Shown: piece after piece, positions 3,543 to 19,019 of the stretch
Numbering within the stretch: position 1 is the first letter of the stretch
Layout of the letters: each line of letters opens with the position of its first letter
DNA from: a virus
Reading direction: 5' to 3' (one strand)
IMG/VR virus record: IMGVR_UViG_3300017556_000003
Location: 1 to 31,170 of that record
Length of the DNA: 31,170 bases
Position numbers and translations under genes: made by a program
Notes under the pieces: generated by a model
Seen by the model: only the letters and a program-made list of their open reading frames with translations
Databases searched by the model: none
Told to the model about the DNA's origin: nothing

Positions 3543-3559
3543 TTGAATCTCTCCGTTAG

Positions 3560-3597
3560 TGTTATATAAGTACTATAATAGAGTAACTTATATAAGT
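3560..3597. promoter_or_regulatory. Two operator-like palindromes, ACTTATATAAGT
   Basis: ACTTATATAAGT at 3586-3597 is a perfect 12-bp palindrome. A second copy at 3560-3571 (TGTTATATAAGT) differs only in its first two bases. Their starts are 26 bp apart, roughly two and a half helical turns. The first overlaps the -35 side and spacer of the leftward promoter; the second lies just after its -10 box. The neighbouring ribbon-helix-helix gene encodes a protein type that normally binds such short palindromes in tandem, so these are its likely operators. Confidence 0.65.
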
Positions 3598-3600
3598 CAA
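3572..3600 (-). promoter_or_regulatory. Leftward early promoter
   Basis: On the minus strand TTGACT (3600-3595), a 17-bp spacer and TATAGT (3577-3572) make a near-consensus sigma-70 promoter. It would start transcription near 3565, about 23 bases before the membrane-peptide gene. It is the only good promoter seen for the ten leftward genes down to the integrase. The palindromes at 3560-3571 and 3586-3597 bracket and overlap it, so repression by a bound protein is expected. Confidence 0.7.
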
Positions 3601-3613
3601 TAGAAATTTATAC

Positions 3614-3641
3614 TTTTCAAAAAGTTTTTTCGGGGTATACT
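3614..3641 (+). promoter_or_regulatory. Rightward promoter giving a leaderless mRNA
   Basis: TATACT at 3636-3641 ends 6 bp before the ATG at 3648, so transcription would begin at or next to the start codon. No Shine-Dalgarno sequence exists in the remaining six bases. A poor -35 (TTTTCA, 3614-3619) lies 16 bp upstream. The pattern recalls the phage lambda cI message made from PRM, which is leaderless. The weak -35 suggests need for an activator or low constitutive expression. Confidence 0.5.
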
Positions 3642-3647
3642 GTAGGC

Positions 3648-3848
3648 ATGGGAAAAGAGAAGCCAAAAAAGAGAAGCGGCGGAATAACTCACTACACCGA
3701 CAAAGGGGAGGTCACAGTTACGACCTCTGTCACCGTCGAGGATCAGACCCGTTTGCGGGTGATTGCTGCGAAGCGTGGGCTTCGCAGCGTGGCAGCTTTG
3801 CTCCGCGAATTGATCCAAGCGGAACTTGACAAGGAGGGGAAGGGGTGA
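3648..3848 (+). CDS. Ribbon-helix-helix DNA-binding protein, likely repressor
   Basis: The 66-aa product has the Arc/CopG-type plan: a basic start (MGKEKPKKRSGG), a strand EVTVTTSVTV (about 21-30) that would pair in the dimer and enter the major groove, helix A EDQTRLRVIAAKRG, and helix B SVAALLRELIQAELDKEG. Such proteins bind short palindromes as tandem dimers. Two copies of ACTTATATAAGT lie directly upstream across the divergent promoter, so it probably controls the leftward operon and perhaps itself. No ribosome site precedes the ATG; the mRNA should be leaderless. Its stop overlaps the next gene start. Confidence 0.78.
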   Translation: MGKEKPKKRSGGITHYTDKGEVTVTTSVTVEDQTRLRVIAAKRGLRSVAALLRELIQAELDKEGKG

Positions 3849-5702: not shown

Positions 5703-5752
5703 AATAATTTCGCCCAAGCCCGAACACACCCACCGACCGCAAGGAGGTCGCC

Positions 5753-5956
5753 ATGCCGGACACACGAACCGAGATTAAGCACGGCAAAGAAATTGCCAAA
5801 GAGTTGCAACAGGTTGGCGAAATGTTGGCAACTCTTTACCCCGAAGGCCAGTACGCTACTCTCATCGTGAGGTTAGGTAGCGGGCTCCCTGACGCTGTGA
5901 TTCCATTTGAAATCCAAAAAGGATCGCTCACTCCTCCTCATTCCCCTTGTTCTTGA
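5753..5956 (+). CDS. Hypothetical 67-aa protein
   Basis: Not recognised. ATG follows AAGGAGGTCGCC, an excellent ribosome site. The first half is helical (IKHGKEIAKELQQVGEMLAT), then LYPEGQYATLIVRLGSGLPDAVIPFEI looks like two strands. The last ten residues overlap the end of the convergent gene by 29 bp. A short AT-rich stretch before the gene (TAAAATAATTT near 5700) could hold a promoter but no paired -35 is clear. Confidence 0.65.
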   Translation: MPDTRTEIKHGKEIAKELQQVGEMLATLYPEGQYATLIVRLGSGLPDAVIPFEIQKGSLTPPHSPCS

Positions 5957-9508: not shown

Positions 9509-9987
9509 TGTTGGATGCAATGGGAATCAGGACGTGGCAGACGGTCTTTCACGAGGGGTTTGCCCCTTCGCTTTCGACCGCAGGGCTGGAAGAGCTTCGA
9601 GATGCTCTACATGCTCGGAGTTGCGAATTGTCACAAGGTTCGACCACAACTCCTCCGCCGTTGATGTGTGTTCAAGAGTGGCCGGTCGAAGCTGCCTGTG
9701 CCATTGGTTACTGTGGGTGGCGTGGTGAAGGGCTTGAAACGGTTGGCGAAGTTGAAGAATACTTTGCCCGATGCTGCTTCGAGGCCGACCAACGACTCGG
9801 CGAACCGGCTGCCTGCCGTTGGTTCTTGAACTGGTTCGACGATACGCCACGCGAACACATGTGCCGAGAGTTGGCCGTCGAGGTCGAGTTGATCCTCAAA
9901 CAACGCAAAGAGCAAGAAGCGATAGCACCTAAGCAACCCGAGGAAGACCCTTTTGCGGGGTTCAGTGAGATCGAGGAGTCGAAATAA
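9508..9987 (+). CDS. Hypothetical 159-aa protein
   Basis: Not recognised. ATG at 9508 overlaps the nuclease stop (TGATG) and follows AAGGAGG. Notable are several cysteines in CVQEWPVEAACAIGYCGWRG and EEYFARCCFEADQ, and a tryptophan pair in CRWFLNWFDD, then a long C-terminal helix ending EEDPFAGFSEIEESK. The acidic tail with FAGF resembles the short acidic tails of single-strand DNA binding proteins, but no OB fold is evident, so I do not assign one. Coupling to the exonuclease suggests a recombination partner. Confidence 0.68.
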   Translation: MLDAMGIRTWQTVFHEGFAPSLSTAGLEELRDALHARSCELSQGSTTTPPPLMCVQEWPVEAACAIGYCGWRGEGLETVGEVEEYFARCCFEADQRLGEPAACRWFLNWFDDTPREHMCRELAVEVELILKQRKEQEAIAPKQPEEDPFAGFSEIEESK

Positions 9988-11063
9988 TGGCACGAAAAAA
10001 ACCGGTCAGCAAAGAGACAATGGATCAAGTACGCGAGGCTGTTAAGGCTGATCCGTCAAAGGATTCATTGCTCAGAATCGCAGATACTTTTGGGGTACGG
10101 ATTCCACTGGTTTATAGGGTTCGCCTGAGTCTCGGATTAACAAAATCCAAAGACGAAACCTATCGCCAAATGAAGGAAATCAGGAAAGCGATTAAGGCTG
10201 ATCCTTCGAGTGAAAATCTTGAAAAACTTGCACGCGAAACAGGTCGCTCTTACATGAGCCTGATTACAATTCGGCGAGAGCTTGGGCTATCAACAGAACG
10301 CGGTGCCAACTGGACTCGTAATCAGGAAAGTGCTGTGAAAGAGGCATACCTCGATGGTGAACGAATCGAGGATATTGCAGCAAAACACAATCGCAGCATT
10401 AGTGCGATTTATCTGAAATTGAACGAGTTGGGCGTGAAGCGAGAAAGACGAAATCGGCTTACACCCTCGGTTGTCGAGAGGATTTGCAAAATCATCAAGG
10501 CAGGGGGCAATAACAGACAGGCTGCCCGTATATGCAAAGTCTCGGATACGACGGTACGAAAGATACTCAAAGACAAGGGCATCGCAAGTCGATTCGAGGA
10601 AGTCGGTCGAAAAATGGCCCAAGAAACCAAGCTCAAAAAGGTCGAGCAACAGGGATGGCCGAAAGGCTGCACAGTTCACAAGGCACGATTGCTCAAGGGA
10701 CTTGAGTCGATTGGCTTTGGAACAGTCAAGCAAATTTGCGATAGTTCTGGCTACTCAAATGCGGAGCCTCGACACTACAGTTTGCTTCGCCAAATGAAGG
10801 ACGAAGGGTGGATTATTTTGACGCAAGTCAAAATGGGAACCAAAAACAAAGTGCATATGTACGCTCTGAGCGAAGCTGTTAAAGCGAGCCGAGAGGCAGC
10901 GGTTTTGCAGAACGAGAAAAATACAGAGGAACCAATCCCCGAAGTTTTGCAGCCTTATACAGAGGACAATTTCAAGCTAACCGGCATGTCCGACGTGATT
11001 GAAAATCGGGCTGGCACAGACGGCAATCCTGGTATGAGGATCATCAAGGGGAAGAACCAATGA
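9987..11063 (+). CDS. Protein with five tandem HTH-like units
   Basis: 358 aa. Residues 11-51 and 61-101 are near-repeats of each other (VREAVKADPSKDSL versus IRKAIKADPSSENL), each ending in a helix-turn-helix and an LGL turn. A homeodomain-like unit follows at 110-151 (IEDIAAKHNRSISAIYLKLN), another at 160-200 (NNRQAARICKVSDTTVRKIL), and a winged-helix-like unit at 232-280 (GTVKQICDSSGYSNAE). The tail is disordered and acidic. Such an array should bind a long or repeated DNA site, perhaps the iterons at 16935-17153 or late promoters. Start overlaps the previous stop (TAATG). No enzymatic domain is present. Confidence 0.78.
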   Translation: MARKKPVSKETMDQVREAVKADPSKDSLLRIADTFGVRIPLVYRVRLSLGLTKSKDETYRQMKEIRKAIKADPSSENLEKLARETGRSYMSLITIRRELGLSTERGANWTRNQESAVKEAYLDGERIEDIAAKHNRSISAIYLKLNELGVKRERRNRLTPSVVERICKIIKAGGNNRQAARICKVSDTTVRKILKDKGIASRFEEVGRKMAQETKLKKVEQQGWPKGCTVHKARLLKGLESIGFGTVKQICDSSGYSNAEPRHYSLLRQMKDEGWIILTQVKMGTKNKVHMYALSEAVKASREAAVLQNEKNTEEPIPEVLQPYTEDNFKLTGMSDVIENRAGTDGNPGMRIIKGKNQ

Positions 11064-11584
11064 CAAAGCCCACTCAATCGCTTGTGCCTCGCCAGATGTG
11101 CCGACATTGCAACAAAAGCAATGTCAATCGGCCACGCCAGCTCTGTTGGTCTTGCTACTATCGACCCGGCGTTAGAGACCTTTATCCCTCAACCAGCAAA
11201 TACGCTCGAAGGGGATACCCTAACAGGTCGGGAGCTGCGATGCCTCCAATCCCAACAACGGAGATCGCTGGAACGGAGGCTAAGGTGCAGGTCTTGATGG
11301 GACGAGCGAAACGAGGAGAGCAGTTATTCCACGAACTCGACGCTGACGGGACAACAAGCCAAAAGGAAACGCTCAAGAAGGGTACGATGGAAATCTTTTT
11401 GATTTGGAGTCTCCGCTATCGCAACTTCGTCCGCGACCGTGTGCCGTTGGGTGAGCCGGCACTGATGTTTTGGTCTGAGTCTGATGCAGAAGAGTGGGCA
11501 ATGGCTCACTGGATGTGTGAGCGTGATGACCTTCTCGGTCACTGTGAGATTCGGAAGTTCCTAATCACGGAGGATCGAAAGTGA
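11060..11584 (+). CDS. Zinc-finger protein of planctomycete type
   Basis: 174 aa. The N-terminal finger is CRHCNKSNVNRPRQLCWSCY (Cys14, Cys17, Cys29, Cys32), followed by RPGVRDLYPSTSKYARRG, a combination I associate with many small planctomycete proteins. The remainder (KGTMEIFLIWSLRYRNFVRD and SESDAEEWAMAHWMCERDDL) is unassigned. A small nucleic-acid binding or adaptor role is likely. ATG overlaps the previous stop (ATGA), and its own end overlaps the sigma factor start (GTGA), so it may be a partner of that factor. Confidence 0.72.
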   Translation: MTKPTQSLVPRQMCRHCNKSNVNRPRQLCWSCYYRPGVRDLYPSTSKYARRGYPNRSGAAMPPIPTTEIAGTEAKVQVLMGRAKRGEQLFHELDADGTTSQKETLKKGTMEIFLIWSLRYRNFVRDRVPLGEPALMFWSESDAEEWAMAHWMCERDDLLGHCEIRKFLITEDRK

Positions 11585-12105
11585 AAGAACTGAAGCCGAT
11601 TGAGGATTATTACAAGGTCGTTCACTGGTGTGTAAACCGATACGGGCAAAATGTACCCAAGCGATTCCTTGATGATTTAACTCAAGATTGCAACGTGCAA
11701 TTAGTGAGATGCTATCAGAATTTTAACGCCGAAAAGAACAGTGAATTTTCGACGTACATCATTAAGTCGCTCTGCTTTTACATCAGGAATTGGCACGTAA
11801 GGAAAGAATCACTCAGCGAAAGTTTGTCGTTAGACACTGAGCATAACTGTGATTTTGAATTGAGTGATTTGGTTGTTGATCGGCCACAAGCCGATCAAGA
11901 TTGGCTGATTGATTGCAATTTGTTTTTGCGATGCCTCGACAAGAGGAGCCAGTTGTTTTTGCGTCTGCACAAAGGACTCGATTATACGCTCCGTGAGATA
12001 GCTGCGATGTACGAGATTAGTTGTGAGCGTGTGAATCAAATCATCCAAAAGGCGATGATTAAAGTTTACCTGCATGCGAAGAAAAAAGGGTTGAAGATGA
12101 TTTGA
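11581..12105 (+). CDS. Sigma-70 family RNA polymerase sigma factor
   Basis: 174 aa, the length of small sigma factors. Region 2 lies in residues 12-75, with FNAEKNSEFSTYIIKSLCFY like the -10 recognition helix and its preceding segment. A short acidic linker leads to region 4 (about 118-168), with a clear HTH in YTLREIAAMYEISCERVNQI. GTG start at 11581 overlaps the upstream stop and has GGAGGA at 8 bp. It could direct host polymerase to phage middle or late promoters; its targets cannot be named from one sequence. Base composition is lower in G+C than the neighbours, hinting at separate origin. Confidence 0.85.
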   Translation: MKELKPIEDYYKVVHWCVNRYGQNVPKRFLDDLTQDCNVQLVRCYQNFNAEKNSEFSTYIIKSLCFYIRNWHVRKESLSESLSLDTEHNCDFELSDLVVDRPQADQDWLIDCNLFLRCLDKRSQLFLRLHKGLDYTLREIAAMYEISCERVNQIIQKAMIKVYLHAKKKGLKMI

Positions 12106-13288: not shown

Positions 13289-13564
13289 ATGACCTTCAAA
13301 GCATGGCGGTGTTCTGTGTGCGACGTGCACCTAACCTGCACTGAGAACGGTTGGTTGTGTTCTCAGCCCGGAGCCCACACTGGACTCATCAGCGACTACC
13401 AACTGGCTGTGAGATTGCACGATGAGAGCAAAGCCAAATACAAGGATCGATGCGATAGCTTTTCGGCTTGCAGGGGGCAAGTAGCCGAAAAACGGAGCAA
13501 ACTCCTGCCCACCGGAAACGACTTGATTTTGCAAGCTGTGAATGGCAACATGGAGGACGACTAA
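13289..13564 (+). CDS. Small zinc-ribbon-like protein, 91 aa
   Basis: The N-terminus MTFKAWRCSVCDVHLTCTEN with a later GWLCSQPGAHTG offers Cys8, Cys11, Cys24 and a histidine, a plausible zinc site. The rest is a helix (LAVRLHDESKAKYKDRCDSF). ATG is directly after the DUF1643 stop with GGAGGGTG 8 bp upstream. The end overlaps the clamp start (TAATG). Function unknown. Confidence 0.62.
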   Translation: MTFKAWRCSVCDVHLTCTENGWLCSQPGAHTGLISDYQLAVRLHDESKAKYKDRCDSFSACRGQVAEKRSKLLPTGNDLILQAVNGNMEDD

Positions 13565-14673
13565 TGCAACTGACGATTGAAGCAAGTAAGCTATCGAACA
13601 CTTTACAGAGGGTGCAGGCGTGTGTAGCCAAGCGAACCTCGATTGATATGTATAAGCGAATCCTTTGCGAAGCAAACGACGACGGGCTGATTATCACGGC
13701 GACCGACCTTGAAAGTTGGATGCAGGTGCGAACTCCTGCCTCGGTTCTTGGTGATGGGAAGACTGTCCTGCCCCACAAGGAATTGAAGGCAATCGCTGAT
13801 AAATCTGAGGGAGAGTTGAGCTTCAATATCTCGCAAGGCTCGACGATGATCGAAGTCTCCGGCGAGGGATCGCAGTACAACCTCGCTCTGATGGAACCTG
13901 ACGGCTTTGCACCGATTCAAGAGCGAGAGGTGGACGAATGGTTGCACACTACAGCTTGGGAATTGATTCGTGCCTTGCGTCTCACTCTCTTTTCAGTGAG
14001 TGAAGAGGAAGGCAAGTTTGCAATGCGTGGCATCTTGTTCGAGGCTGCCAACTCAACACTTTCACTTGCATCAACTGACTCAAAACGACTCTCTGTTGCT
14101 GAAGCCAAGCTGTCAGAGCCTCGAACAAGCGAGAAGGTTTGGAATGCCTTGATCGGAAAGAATTGTTGTAATCTCTTATTGCAAAACCTGCTACGTATAC
14201 CTTACGGAACGCCTGTCAAAATTGGGCTCAATTATAACAACTGTTATTTCAAAACCGAAGACTCCGTTTTGATGATTCGGTTGTCGGAAGGACGATTTCC
14301 GCCGTTTCGGGATGTCATCCCGAAACTCAACAAAATGCAAACAATCAAGCTCAATCGTGAAGGGTTCTTAGTATCGCTTGAGCGATTGAAAATGATGCTC
14401 GATGATGAGTGCCGACGGGTCAAATTGAATATCAACGGTACAAGTATCACGATGAACATCACACACACAAAAGTCGGAGAAGGTCAGGTCATTCACCTTC
14501 TGGATCAACCTGCCAGTGTACCCGTTGTGTTAAATTTTGACCCTGAATTTTTGTTGGAGTTGTTGGCAAACAACGAACTGAATGACGAGGTTGCGTTTCA
14601 CTATTTGAACTCCAACAAATCAGTGTTATTCACAAGCGACCGTTACACTCACCTGATTGTCCCCCTGACTTGA
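13564..14673 (+). CDS. dnaN: DNA polymerase III beta subunit, sliding clamp
   Basis: 369 aa, the normal clamp length, beginning MQLTIEASKLSNTLQRVQAC. Three clamp repeats can be followed: the first with TDLESWMQVRTPASVLGDGKTVLPHKELKAIADK, the second with LRLTLFSVSEEEGKFAMRGI and LASTDSKRLSVAEAK, and the third ending SDRYTHLIVPLT where clamps normally end PxR/PL. FPPFRDVIPK matches the FPDYxxxIP motif. ATG at 13564 follows GGAGGACGAC; 32 open codons upstream are in the preceding gene. A phage copy would load host or phage polymerase on phage DNA. No clamp loader or polymerase gene is seen, so host parts must be used. Confidence 0.93.
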   Translation: MQLTIEASKLSNTLQRVQACVAKRTSIDMYKRILCEANDDGLIITATDLESWMQVRTPASVLGDGKTVLPHKELKAIADKSEGELSFNISQGSTMIEVSGEGSQYNLALMEPDGFAPIQEREVDEWLHTTAWELIRALRLTLFSVSEEEGKFAMRGILFEAANSTLSLASTDSKRLSVAEAKLSEPRTSEKVWNALIGKNCCNLLLQNLLRIPYGTPVKIGLNYNNCYFKTEDSVLMIRLSEGRFPPFRDVIPKLNKMQTIKLNREGFLVSLERLKMMLDDECRRVKLNINGTSITMNITHTKVGEGQVIHLLDQPASVPVVLNFDPEFLLELLANNELNDEVAFHYLNSNKSVLFTSDRYTHLIVPLT

Positions 14674-14677
14674 GAGC

Positions 14678-16918
14678 ATGATGCAAGAATCCCCCCAACT
14701 CGGCCTCGCTCTCTCCTTATTGGATGTCGGCATCGCCTGCATTCCCATCCGCACGGAAACCGGCAAGGAGAAAACTCCTGCCCTCGCGAAGTGGAAGCAA
14801 TTCGAGCAACGCCTGCCCACCGAAGCTGAGTTACGACAGGCGTTCTCGGGCCGATCATTCGGCATTGCTGCAATCTGTGGCGCCGTCTCCAACGGCCTTG
14901 AGTGTCTCGACTTCGAGGTGGCTCACGAGTTTGAGTTGTTCCAACACGAACTCGACCAACTGCAACCCGATCTTCTCCCCCGGTTGGTGCAGGTTAAGAC
15001 CCCTTCAGGCGGGTTCCACCTGTGGTATCGTTGCCCAGAAGAGTGTGGCCCGAGCACTCGCTTGGCACTGAGAGATTCAACACCGGAAGAACTCGCAGTT
15101 GATCCCAAAGACAAAATCCAACTCTTGATCGAGACCCGAGGCGAGGGTGGATATGCCCTTCTTCCGGGAGGCGATCCACTCGCCCACCCAACCGGCGAAC
15201 CCTATGAGTACGTCTATGGGCACATCACCGCAGCCCCAACGATAACAGCCGACGAGCGGACGTTGATGCACGATCTCGCTCGATCATTTAGTCGGCTCGT
15301 GAAGCCAGCCAAAGGCCCAACACCAACCCGACCCAAAGCAGCACCCGGAACAATTTCGGCAATTGACGATTACGATCAACGTGGTTCTTGGGAGGAGATA
15401 TTATTCCCGCACGGCTGGACTGTGCATTCTGGCACTTGGGAAGACGGTCGCCTCACACGCCCCGGAAAAGATAACGGGGCGAGTGCGACGGTCGGCTACT
15501 GTCGAGGCTCGCAAGGCGAAGCTCTCCTGCATGTGTTTAGTCAGAAGACCGAACTCCAAGCCGGATGCTATGGCAAGTTCCGAGCTCTTGGGATTCTCAA
15601 TTTTGGGGGCAACTTTTCAGAGACGGTGAAGACCCTCGGCCAGCAAGGTTACGGCACGCCATTCACACATCGAGGTTCTGCTTCGGTTGGGCCTGTTGCC
15701 CAACCCCAAGCTACAACACAAGCACAAGCCAAAGAGCAGAAGCCCGACGAGCCAACGAAACTTCCGTGGGAAATCCCACCACAAAAAGGGGAACGACCTC
15801 GAAAGATCATCAACGCCGTCGAACTGATGCGCAAGGAATTCGTGCCAGTCCCCTACACGGTGGATGGCATCTTGTCGCAAGGACTCAACCTAATCGGAGG
15901 CAAACCGAAGGCTGGCAAATCGTGGTTTGCTTTGCAACTCGCATGGGCGGTTGCAGGTGGGTATGAGATGAGTGGACGGAAAGTCCGCAGCGGGTCGGTT
16001 CTTTACCTTGCGCTCGAGGATACCGAGTCCCGCCTCCAATCCCGAATGAAACTTCTTCGAGCTGCCACGGGTTGGGACTTCCCCAGCAAACTCGACCTCG
16101 CAACCGTTTGGCCCCGTTGTGACGATTCGGGCCTGTATTACTTGTGCGAATGGCTCGAAGCTCGAAAGAGCGATGCCGTTCTTGTTATCGTGGATACCCT
16201 TCAAAAATTCCGCAAGCCCATCAAGGGCCAAACCAACAATTATGCCGACGACTACGAGGCCCTCGAAGGTCTCAAGGGGCTTTGTGATCTCTACGGTGCG
16301 ACTGCCCTCGTCATGCACCACACCCGAAAATTGAAAGCCGAGGATCCTTTCGAGGAGCTCTCCGGAACGCAAGGTCTTGCTGGAGCTGCCGACGGTTTGG
16401 GTGTTCTTGACAGAGACCGGAGCAACGCAACTGGACGCTTGTACATTACTGGTCGGGATCAGGGGGACAGCACTACCCCATTGAGCTTTTCTGGTGACTC
16501 GGGCCTATGGACGCTCGGCGAGACGACCGAGGGGATCGACACTGAAGGGCGCGTGGTTCAACAGGATAAGGGGCCGAGTAAGGTTGAACAGTGCATTTTC
16601 TGGATGCGTGAGTTTCTTCGCGAATACGCATTCCCTTCAGCCGAGTTCAAGACAGCAGCTCATGGCGCTGGCTTCGGATGGGGCACAATCAAAGAAGCTC
16701 AGTCAGCAACCGGAGAAGAGGGCACAAAGGAATTCAAGGCTTATAACTTTGGATCGCGGGCTGAAAACGATTGGTGGATTGGGAGGTACTACGCACCCGG
16801 AACCCGCCCTCACAACTGGGTTCGACGCCCTCCGCCAACAATCAGCAACGCTACAGCGACAAGACGCAATAGCGACGAGCAACAAAAGCCGGATGACTGG
16901 GTTCCTGATGAAATTTGA
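14678..16918 (+). CDS. PrimPol-helicase fusion (primase/polymerase plus AAA_25-type ATPase)
   Basis: 746 aa. Residues 1-200 form a bifunctional primase/polymerase domain: GIACIPI at the start, acidic CLDFE (Asp78, Glu80) for metal, GGFHLWYR (111-118) and ETRGEGGYALLPGG (152-165). A middle part with HGWTVHSGTWEDGRLTRPGK and GASAT (about 245-271) is typical of phage primase linkers. The C-terminal ATPase has Walker A GGKPKAGKS (407-415), Walker B VLVIVD (501-506) and MHHTRK (546-551), as in RepA/AAA_25 helicases. It should start and unwind replication. Starts 4 bp after dnaN; the iteron array follows directly. ATG at 14678 or 14681. Confidence 0.92.
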   Translation: MMQESPQLGLALSLLDVGIACIPIRTETGKEKTPALAKWKQFEQRLPTEAELRQAFSGRSFGIAAICGAVSNGLECLDFEVAHEFELFQHELDQLQPDLLPRLVQVKTPSGGFHLWYRCPEECGPSTRLALRDSTPEELAVDPKDKIQLLIETRGEGGYALLPGGDPLAHPTGEPYEYVYGHITAAPTITADERTLMHDLARSFSRLVKPAKGPTPTRPKAAPGTISAIDDYDQRGSWEEILFPHGWTVHSGTWEDGRLTRPGKDNGASATVGYCRGSQGEALLHVFSQKTELQAGCYGKFRALGILNFGGNFSETVKTLGQQGYGTPFTHRGSASVGPVAQPQATTQAQAKEQKPDEPTKLPWEIPPQKGERPRKIINAVELMRKEFVPVPYTVDGILSQGLNLIGGKPKAGKSWFALQLAWAVAGGYEMSGRKVRSGSVLYLALEDTESRLQSRMKLLRAATGWDFPSKLDLATVWPRCDDSGLYYLCEWLEARKSDAVLVIVDTLQKFRKPIKGQTNNYADDYEALEGLKGLCDLYGATALVMHHTRKLKAEDPFEELSGTQGLAGAADGLGVLDRDRSNATGRLYITGRDQGDSTTPLSFSGDSGLWTLGETTEGIDTEGRVVQQDKGPSKVEQCIFWMREFLREYAFPSAEFKTAAHGAGFGWGTIKEAQSATGEEGTKEFKAYNFGSRAENDWWIGRYYAPGTRPHNWVRRPPPTISNATATRRNSDEQQKPDDWVPDEI

Positions 16919-16934
16919 GTTTCACGAAAAGACC

Positions 16935-17153
16935 ATACCTGTCATACCTGTCAGGGCAAACGCGAGAAATATAGGGGTTTGGTGACTGGTACGGCGAACA
17001 ACAGAGACCATACCAGTCATACCAGTCGAGGGTTTTTGCGAAATCACCATACCTGTCAAGACTGGTATGACAGGTATGGTAAAAATCAACGAGGCATACC
17101 AGTCACCAAACCCTTGTTTTTACGGGGTTTGGTTAGACAGGTATGACAGGTAT
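16935..17153. repeat. Iteron array, candidate replication origin
   Basis: Eleven copies of the 9-mer ATACCWGTC. Forward: 16935, 16944, 17010, 17019, 17049, 17096. Reverse: 16984 (one mismatch), 17060, 17069, 17136, 17145. Four adjacent pairs repeat at exactly 9 bp, and pairs alternate between T and A at the sixth base. A 17-bp inverted repeat, GGGTTTGGTGACTGGTA at 16975-16991 and its complement at 17097-17113, frames the centre, with a partial third copy at 17125. The array lies between the PrimPol-helicase and RusA genes, 16 bp after the stop. Initiator-binding iterons are the best reading; a compound operator is the alternative. Confidence 0.75.
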
Positions 17154-17177
17154 GGTAATTCTTGAGGAGTACGATTT

Positions 17178-17738
17178 GTGGGGATGAACGCAACCGAAGA
17201 AGAGATCGTGCGATGGGTCGAAACCGGTCGGGTGGAGTATGCTGCCGTCCGCGATTTGCTTTCGCTCCCGTCGCAATCGCGTTTGCAATCGCTCGGGTTC
17301 GCTGGACCCGTTTTTGGTTCACCCGTTGCCCCTGCCGAAGTCTCTAAGTTACTCAAAACGCCGAAGCCGGTTCGGTTCGGAAAGTGCAAGCCTGGATTTG
17401 CCATTACCTTCGAGGCTCCTATTAAGCTCGTGTCCGAGGCCAACACGCACGACGGGTTGAAGGCTGAGCTACGAAGGAAGGCAGCCGTCAAACGGGCGAT
17501 GCACCAAGTCCTCACGTCGCTTCCTCGGGTGGTTATTCTGCCTTGCACGGTAACGATGATACGATTTGGCCCAAAGGAGCTTGATTCCGACAACCTCGAT
17601 AACGCATTCAAGGCGGTGAGGGATATGATCGCCGAGTGGGTAGGAGTTGACGACGCCGACAAACGATACACATGGCGGTTCGCACAGAAATCGGGCAAGG
17701 CTCACAAGGTGCGAGTAACAATTTGGAGCGGAGCATGA
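17178..17738 (+). CDS. rusA: RusA-type Holliday junction resolvase
   Basis: 186 aa with the RusA core at the C-terminus: LDSDNLDNAFKAVRDMIAEW (Asp136, Asp138) and VGVDDADKRY (Asp158/Asp159), the three acidic residues that bind metal in RusA, ending in a VRVTI strand. About 70 residues precede the core and include a helical segment EEEIVRWVETGRVEYAAVRD not found in E. coli RusA. GTG at 17178 is 8 bp after GAGGAG; ATG at 17184 is too distant. It would resolve branched replication or recombination intermediates before packaging. Directly downstream of the iterons. Confidence 0.88.
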   Translation: MGMNATEEEIVRWVETGRVEYAAVRDLLSLPSQSRLQSLGFAGPVFGSPVAPAEVSKLLKTPKPVRFGKCKPGFAITFEAPIKLVSEANTHDGLKAELRRKAAVKRAMHQVLTSLPRVVILPCTVTMIRFGPKELDSDNLDNAFKAVRDMIAEWVGVDDADKRYTWRFAQKSGKAHKVRVTIWSGA

Positions 17739-18440: not shown

Positions 18441-19019
18441 ATGAAAACAAAGCCCCCACCAACCGTAGAAAAGCTCGTTGCCGATAATCTCGACCTTGCT
18501 CGCTGGGTCGTTCATCGGTGTTTCCCTAACGTCCGGCCTCGCACCGCCGAATGGGAGGAGTATCACGCATGTGCCCTCGAAGGGCTTTTTCAAGCTGCAA
18601 TGAAATTTGACTCGTCCAAAGGGGCCTCATTTGCAACCTTTGCTGTTTGCTGTGCTAGTCGGTTCATCCTCACTTGGCTCCGCAAGGAGTGCAGGAGGGG
18701 CATTTCACAAGTCACCGTAAAAACGGCTCGTGAAACAAAGCTCACCGTAACCCCTCTTGACGATTCCTCTTTTGCCGCTCGTGACCAACTGGCCCCGCTT
18801 GATGCTGTCGAGGAGATTGCATTGATCCAACGCAAGGTTGCGGTGATGGGCTCGCCTTATGCCGAGGTCATGCAACACGAGTTCTGGGGGCCGAAATTGT
18901 ATCACCCGGAACTCATGCGATTGGCGAACGAATACGGCTTTGCTTCGGTTCGAGAGTTGATTGACGAGACCGTCCAAGAGGTACGAGGAGTATTATGTGA
19001 TAGGGAGATTTTTCTATGA
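18441..19019 (+). CDS. Sigma factor region-2-like protein
   Basis: 192 aa. Residues 15-85 carry sigma region 2: NLDLARWVVHRCFPNV, EEYHACALEGLFQAAMKFDS and GASFATFAVCCASRFILTWL, the F-D-x-x-K-G-x-x-F-x-T-(F/Y)-A pattern of the polymerase-binding and -10 helices. A typical region 4 HTH is not evident at the C-terminus, so promoter recognition may rest on region 2 or a partner. A weak TAGACT box ends 6 bp before the ATG and no ribosome site is seen, suggesting a leaderless message. It stands directly before the terminase genes (ATGA overlap), the classical position of a late-gene activator. Confidence 0.7.
   Translation: MKTKPPPTVEKLVADNLDLARWVVHRCFPNVRPRTAEWEEYHACALEGLFQAAMKFDSSKGASFATFAVCCASRFILTWLRKECRRGISQVTVKTARETKLTVTPLDDSSFAARDQLAPLDAVEEIALIQRKVAVMGSPYAEVMQHEFWGPKLYHPELMRLANEYGFASVRELIDETVQEVRGVLCDREIFL

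Follow-up and report, generated by a model that had tools for sequence, protein, structure and literature searches.

The 245-bp gap behind the PrimPol-helicase gene of this phage is probably its replication origin, in which 9-bp iterons would be read by the C-terminal helix-turn-helix (HTH) of the adjoining replicase. An initiator-bound origin beside the PrimPol-helicase is a well-supported prediction from position, conservation, recurrence in unrelated elements and C-terminal co-divergence. From these lines of evidence we infer binding, melting, priming and origin activity. The window, which is the whole 31,170-nucleotide stretch of DNA analyzed, encodes an integrase, a terminase, a portal, a capsid protein and a replication module.

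The exact word ATACCWGTC occurs ten times in the 31,170-base window, every time within 16935-17153. The expectation for the whole window in shuffles is 0.20 ± 0.43, which rules out a chance origin of the array. An earlier note had described eleven ATACCWGTC iterons in two orientations beside a PrimPol-helicase, and they were recovered as these ten exact sites plus one with a single mismatch, in the gap adjoining the replicase gene. The gap (16919-17177) is preceded by the replicase gene (14678-16918) and followed by an ORF at 17178-17738. Iterons 1 and 2 (ATACCTGTC twice; 16935-16952, plus strand) are based on the shuffle-tested motif scan and the alignment of relatives. Iteron 3 (16984-16992, minus strand) is the one-mismatch site, GTACCAGTC; it was detected in a mismatch scan and is perfect in the relatives. 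The motif scan and the alignment of relatives also gave iterons 4 and 5 (ATACCAGTC twice; 17010-17027, plus strand), 7 and 8 (17060-17077, minus strand), 9 (ATACCAGTC; 17096-17104, plus strand), and 10 and 11 (17136-17153, minus strand). Iteron 6 (ATACCTGTC; 17049-17057, plus strand), the center of the dyad, was placed by the motif scan and the fold. The orientations of sites 1 to 11 are + + - + + + - - + - -. A protein-coding repeat was rejected as an explanation, as the sites face both ways and lie between ORFs.

Four tandem pairs in the array have a 9-bp pitch. At 9 bp, or 9/10.5 of a turn, each site is rotated by ~51 degrees relative to its neighbor, which places the two close to the same helix face and not on opposite faces, contrary to what had been claimed. 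The alternation of T and A at W, also claimed, is no fixed pattern; W flips freely between relatives. With units of 9 bp in both orientations, the array differs from a classical iteron plasmid origin, which has direct iterons of ~20 bp.

No GC-skew switch was observed near 17 kb, and GC skew gave no origin signal in the window. No AT-rich unwinding element stands out in the array region (GC 0.42-0.50 versus about 0.55 around it). There is no promoter-like site in the gap, and one terminator-like site was found. No Rfam match for the gap was near the gathering score or credible. A text search of the open-access literature found no papers naming the ATACCWGTC repeat, and searches of plasmid and annotated-phage DNA with the repeat returned little besides Microbacterium phage StrawberryJamm. 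The next-densest cluster of short repeats in the window, at 3550-3700, contains 15 repeat pairs versus 130 in the array.

The sites are organized as a nested imperfect dyad (16921-17165, without strand), the proposed origin of replication, which was recognized by self-reverse-complement alignment and by its fold, and whose layout is repeated in the relatives L002 and L003. The alignment of this ~245-bp segment with its own reverse complement scores 176; 200 shuffles gave a mean of 26 and a maximum of 52. Sites 1-11, 2-10, 3-9, 4-8 and 5-7 are mirrored pairs, and the central site 6 is unpaired. As one strand, the gap folds at -69.6 kcal/mol, versus -26.6 ± 3.8 in shuffles (z -11.35), and the corresponding fold in L003 has a z of -14.62. 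A large stem-loop is thus found behind the replicase gene, as in the pRN1 type. The 17-bp inverted repeat reported earlier is present, but it understates the structure, as the whole gap is a nested dyad of mirrored sites.

The window was compared with two relatives whose replicase proteins are 87% identical, and the layout of eleven sites is kept in all three. Variable positions are 1 of 88 among the specified bases, 6 of 11 among the W positions and 33 of 124 in the spacers (core versus spacer, p 6e-8). The eight specified bases are under purifying selection and W is free, which points to a protein reading the 9-mers. A joint change at sites 2 and 10 between relatives preserved their pairing. 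The inner W pairs mismatch in some genomes, and the fold is thus not strictly maintained.

One right-hand spacer block (17113-17135, plus strand) is identical in the alignment of all three relatives and is a possible priming site. It contains GGGTTTGGT, of which the window has 3 copies, all inside the array, and the only copy of TTTGGTTA (17128-17135). TTTGGTTA is the template recognition site of the phage NrS-1 PrimPol (PMC8718748). Although this likeness to NrS-1 falls in a conserved block, the sequence search showed no relatedness between the replicase and the NrS-1 polymerase, and the identity may be a chance match.

The replicase (14678-16918, plus strand; 746 aa) consists of a PrimPol domain, an SF4 RecA-fold helicase and a modelled C-terminal HTH, based on Pfam, profile search and modelling. 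The Pfam matches are Prim-Pol (1.2e-14) and AAA_25 (4e-25). The closest relatives with solved structures in the profile search are RSF1010 RepA (1g8y, 2.9e-20) for the helicase and pRN1 ORF904 (5e-8) for the PrimPol, and the modelled helicase part matches DnaB/RepA with a VIA Z of about 20. The replicase thus has the archaeo-eukaryotic PrimPol domain of the pRN1 type and the RepA-type hexameric helicase of the RSF1010 type. With its AAA_25 domain and DnaB/RSF1010 RepA RecA fold, it has neither the DUF927 or D5-type helicase of the SaPI/SCC type nor the SF3 helicase of the pRN1 type. The PrimPol is fused to the helicase, in place of the separate RepC and RepB' of the RSF1010 type, and no relative of RepC matched among the window proteins scanned.

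The proposed iteron reader is a predicted winged-helix region at the C-terminus (residues ~633-704; 16573-16791, plus strand), based on the model and on co-divergence in relatives. In the model, helices at 635-646, 654-663 and 668-677 are followed by strands at 683-687 and 699-704, with the HTH at 635-677. The C-terminus is tentatively assigned as an HTH with a possible wing, from a model built on a shallow alignment (7-8 sequences) whose similarity to known wHTH folds is weak (GntR-type winged helices, Z 3.7, not significant). In L093, another array-bearing replicase, an HTH_IclR match is located behind the helicase.

The association between the motif and replication genes was examined from both sides. 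A scan of viral and genome collections with ATACCWGTC yielded 19 dereplicated groups (hand-grouped) of two-orientation arrays with at least 4 sites. In 12 of the 19 groups (L012, L026, L029, L034, L038, L041, L051, L061, L071, L081, L082-type and L093), a Pfam-confirmed primase/helicase adjoins the array, almost always with the array at the 3' end of the gene. A replication protein was found in 0 of the 10 proteins examined as one-orientation controls. The other 7 groups have no confirmed replicase, and some of their arrays are at contig ends. In L048 and L049, the ORF preceding the array had been guessed by eye to be DUF927; this was not confirmed, and both were left out of the positives. The earlier note had counted repeats at many unrelated sites as an argument against an origin. 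Such matches do occur, mainly as one-orientation copies in repetitive protein-coding genes with collagen-like or VTPVTP/VTGVTG repeats.

The array-bearing elements span several bacterial phyla. Their helicases are SF3 (D5_N, DUF5906, VapE), DUF927 or AAA_25, combined with PrimPol, Toprim or no recognized primase. The sharing of TGACAGGTR beside unrelated helicases may reflect common descent, module exchange or ascertainment by the motif scan. Arrays that overlap the replicase 3' end (L034 4001-4060, L093 8240-8510, L038 about 5720-5765) encode VTPVTP/VTGVTG linkers. The repetitive tails seen in phage primase-helicases may be a side effect of origin DNA. In L029, small HTH-like ORFs adjoin the array.

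For the reverse direction, a motif-independent collection of 80 relatives was obtained by a scan keyed to the PrimPol motif alone. The AAA_25 alignment was too divergent for such a scan. These relatives seldom carry ATACCWGTC and have arrays of other words instead, which rules out that the motif belongs to the PrimPol domain. The words at their 3' ends include CCGTTCCGC, CTTGACCGA, TGACGCTT, AACTGTCCT and GCGCACAAAAC, commonly with a pitch of 9 to 12 bp. Short repeats, direct as well as inverted, are densest 0 to +200 bp from the replicase stop, with background density reached again within roughly 400 bp. The count of inverted 8-mer pairs per 300 bp is 15.5 to 16.9 at 0 and +100, versus a background of about 1.6. 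Dense arrays were observed at 13 of 19 replicase 3' ends versus 11 of 116 other ORF ends (Fisher p 9e-8); as thresholds were picked after viewing the repeat profile, p-values in this direction are indicative. Strong hairpin potential (z <= -5) was observed at 9 of 20 replicase 3' ends, the window included, versus 0 of 76 controls. About a third of the PrimPol relatives have no visible array at the replicase 3' end. Near the replicase stop of L104, L109, L139, L169 and L178, several arrays are centered on a G+C-rich mini-hairpin, such as CCCCCCTATAAGGGGGG. Arthrobacter phage Eileen (L033, 7700-8100) has a two-orientation repeat of a different word, AGTGACATTAGGGACA / GTCCCTAATGTCA, about 300 bp behind the replicase.

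In a set of 31 dereplicated array-bearing replicases, the correlation of repeat similarity with sequence identity is 0.60 for the C-terminal 130 aa, 0.47 for the helicase and 0.41 for the PrimPol. When PrimPol identity is held, the partial r for the C-terminus is 0.50 (permutation p 0.0005). When the C-terminus is held, no correlation with PrimPol or helicase remains in these 31 replicases. Some replicases exemplify this separation. The PrimPol domains of L114 and L177 are about two-thirds identical to many others, while their C-termini and repeats are unrelated. Between L105-like and L114-like replicases, the PrimPol is 67% identical, the C-termini are 21% identical and the iterons are unrelated. 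In these sequence comparisons, the repeat word tracks the C-terminal domain of the replicase and not the PrimPol or helicase domain. The C-terminal codons adjoin the array, and physical linkage alone could yield part of this co-divergence.

That iteron identity follows the replicase C-terminus is also a point against the first alternative, in which the origin, or a regulatory array, is read by a separate DNA-binding protein, such as a tandem-HTH protein or a host factor. Such a separate reader is rather unlikely. It would fit the tandem-HTH protein of the window, weakly similar to the repeat-binding Cbp1, the small HTH-like ORFs beside the L029 array, the presence of the same 9-mer beside replicases of differing helicase folds, and the separate RepC employed by RSF1010 (PMC4234260). 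However, the tandem-HTH gene is 6 kb from the array, and in SaPI Rep and Cch2 the reader is the C-terminal domain of the initiator itself (PMC7581432). It is very improbable that the array is a partition (centromere-like) site or a cluster of operators for transcription of the next genes. No ParA/ParB gene was recognized among the proteins scanned, the phage has an integrase, the gap lacks a promoter-like site, the L034 and L093 arrays are inside the 3' coding end of the replicase, and the position of the array follows the replicase in unrelated elements, although sites of this kind typically have short repeats arrayed in direct and inverted orientation and the parS of phage Miko, with five direct repeats, is directly downstream of repA (PMC7157519). 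It is hardly credible that the dyad is mainly structural (a terminator hairpin in RNA, or a cruciform used by another enzyme) and that the 9-mers are incidental, despite the very strong fold and the terminator-like site, because selection acts on the 9-mers and not on the whole stem, with drifting spacers and W-W mismatches tolerated at the inner pairs, and because there is no credible Rfam match.

In the preferred reading, an origin read by the replicase itself, the HTH at the C-terminus of the PrimPol-helicase would bind the ATACCWGTC iterons that directly follow the gene encoding it. With the sites mirrored, two hexamers could assemble head to head. The helicase would then open the dyad, possibly aided by cruciform extrusion, and the PrimPol domain would prime on the exposed strands. 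Phage or host replisome parts would take over, perhaps with the phage-encoded clamp.

Related designs are known. For SaPI Rep and SCCmec Cch2, iterons immediately follow the initiator gene and are bound by the C-terminal domain of its product, and the Cch2-linked primase primes efficiently at the Cch2 origin (PMC7581432). The window likewise has multiple short iterons (11 sites) directly downstream of the initiator-helicase gene, at a predicted origin. SaPI Rep and Cch2 are DUF927 or D5-type helicases, whereas in the window a DnaB/RSF1010 RepA-type RecA fold is fused to PrimPol, and the 9-bp iterons make up a single nested dyad. Plasmid pRN1 requires a 100-nt stem-loop behind the PrimPol-helicase gene orf904 for replication, and its authors proposed the same role for the stem-loop of phage BIP-1 (PMC4234260). 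The window resembles the pRN1 ORF904 replicon and phage BPP-1/BIP-1 in that its PrimPol-helicase gene is directly followed by a large stem-loop, but the ORF904 helicase is SF3 and no iterons are reported in pRN1, while the stem-loop here is made of eleven iterons (PMC4234260). By analogy, the window would combine the SaPI/SCCmec and pRN1 designs with an SF4 helicase and would work like both. It is not a member of either type, because the helicase family differs. The new initiator-site geometry suggested in the earlier note is not needed: SaPIs and SCCmec already provide examples of short iterons directly behind the gene of an initiator helicase (PMC7581432), and pRN1 provides one of a large stem-loop there (PMC4234260). 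The PrimPol priming platform that the note offered as the other possibility is a tentative idea; repeat similarity shows no dependence on the PrimPol domain after correction for the C-terminus.

RSF1010, which has in RepA the nearest relative of known structure to the helicase domain, divides among three separate proteins (RepA, RepB' and RepC, with RepC on the iterons) the functions that are fused here (PMC4234260). Phage P4 alpha, like the replicase, carries a primase, a helicase and a C-terminal winged helix acting on short origin repeats in one polypeptide, the winged helix and its binding being predictions in our case (PMC4234260). P4 alpha differs in its Toprim-type primase and its repeat word. 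Its helicase belongs to SF3.

A general rule is plausible but tentative: phage PrimPol-helicases, SF3 or SF4, may use as origin a dyad of iterons located at the 3' end of the gene that encodes them, the repeat word being dictated by an exchangeable reader domain at the C-terminus, and here one polypeptide alone may perform recognition, melting and specific priming (at TTTGGTTA). If so, the sequences of many uncultured phages could reveal their origins and the specificity of their initiators. The origins of most uncultured PrimPol phages are unmapped, and a reproducible link between C-terminal domain, repeat word and a fixed place behind the gene would make them predictable. The same link supplies natural domain swaps, such as L114 versus L105. 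The 3'-origin design of SF3/DUF927 helicases would then also apply to an SF4 RepA-like helicase with a PrimPol fusion, which bears on how a single polypeptide can initiate replication when no separate loader is present.

The ORF that follows the proposed origin and lies outside it (17178-17738, plus strand) is RusA-like by a DxDN motif only. It has no Pfam, PHROG or NCBIfam match and is conserved at 83-84% in L097/L098, and a protein search recovered these two relatives and no others. The phage encodes its own sliding clamp of the DNA polymerase III beta subunit family (13468-14673), in the gene immediately before that of the replicase. The tandem-HTH protein (9987-11063) has a sub-cutoff match to the CRISPR repeat-binding Cbp1 (NCBIfam 9e-8). 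There are two sigma-70-like proteins (11581-12105 and 18441-19019), one with regions 2 and 4 and one with region 2 only. A 103-aa ORF on the minus strand (2282-2593) may, by eye, resemble the N-terminal mismatch-recognition domain of MutS only.
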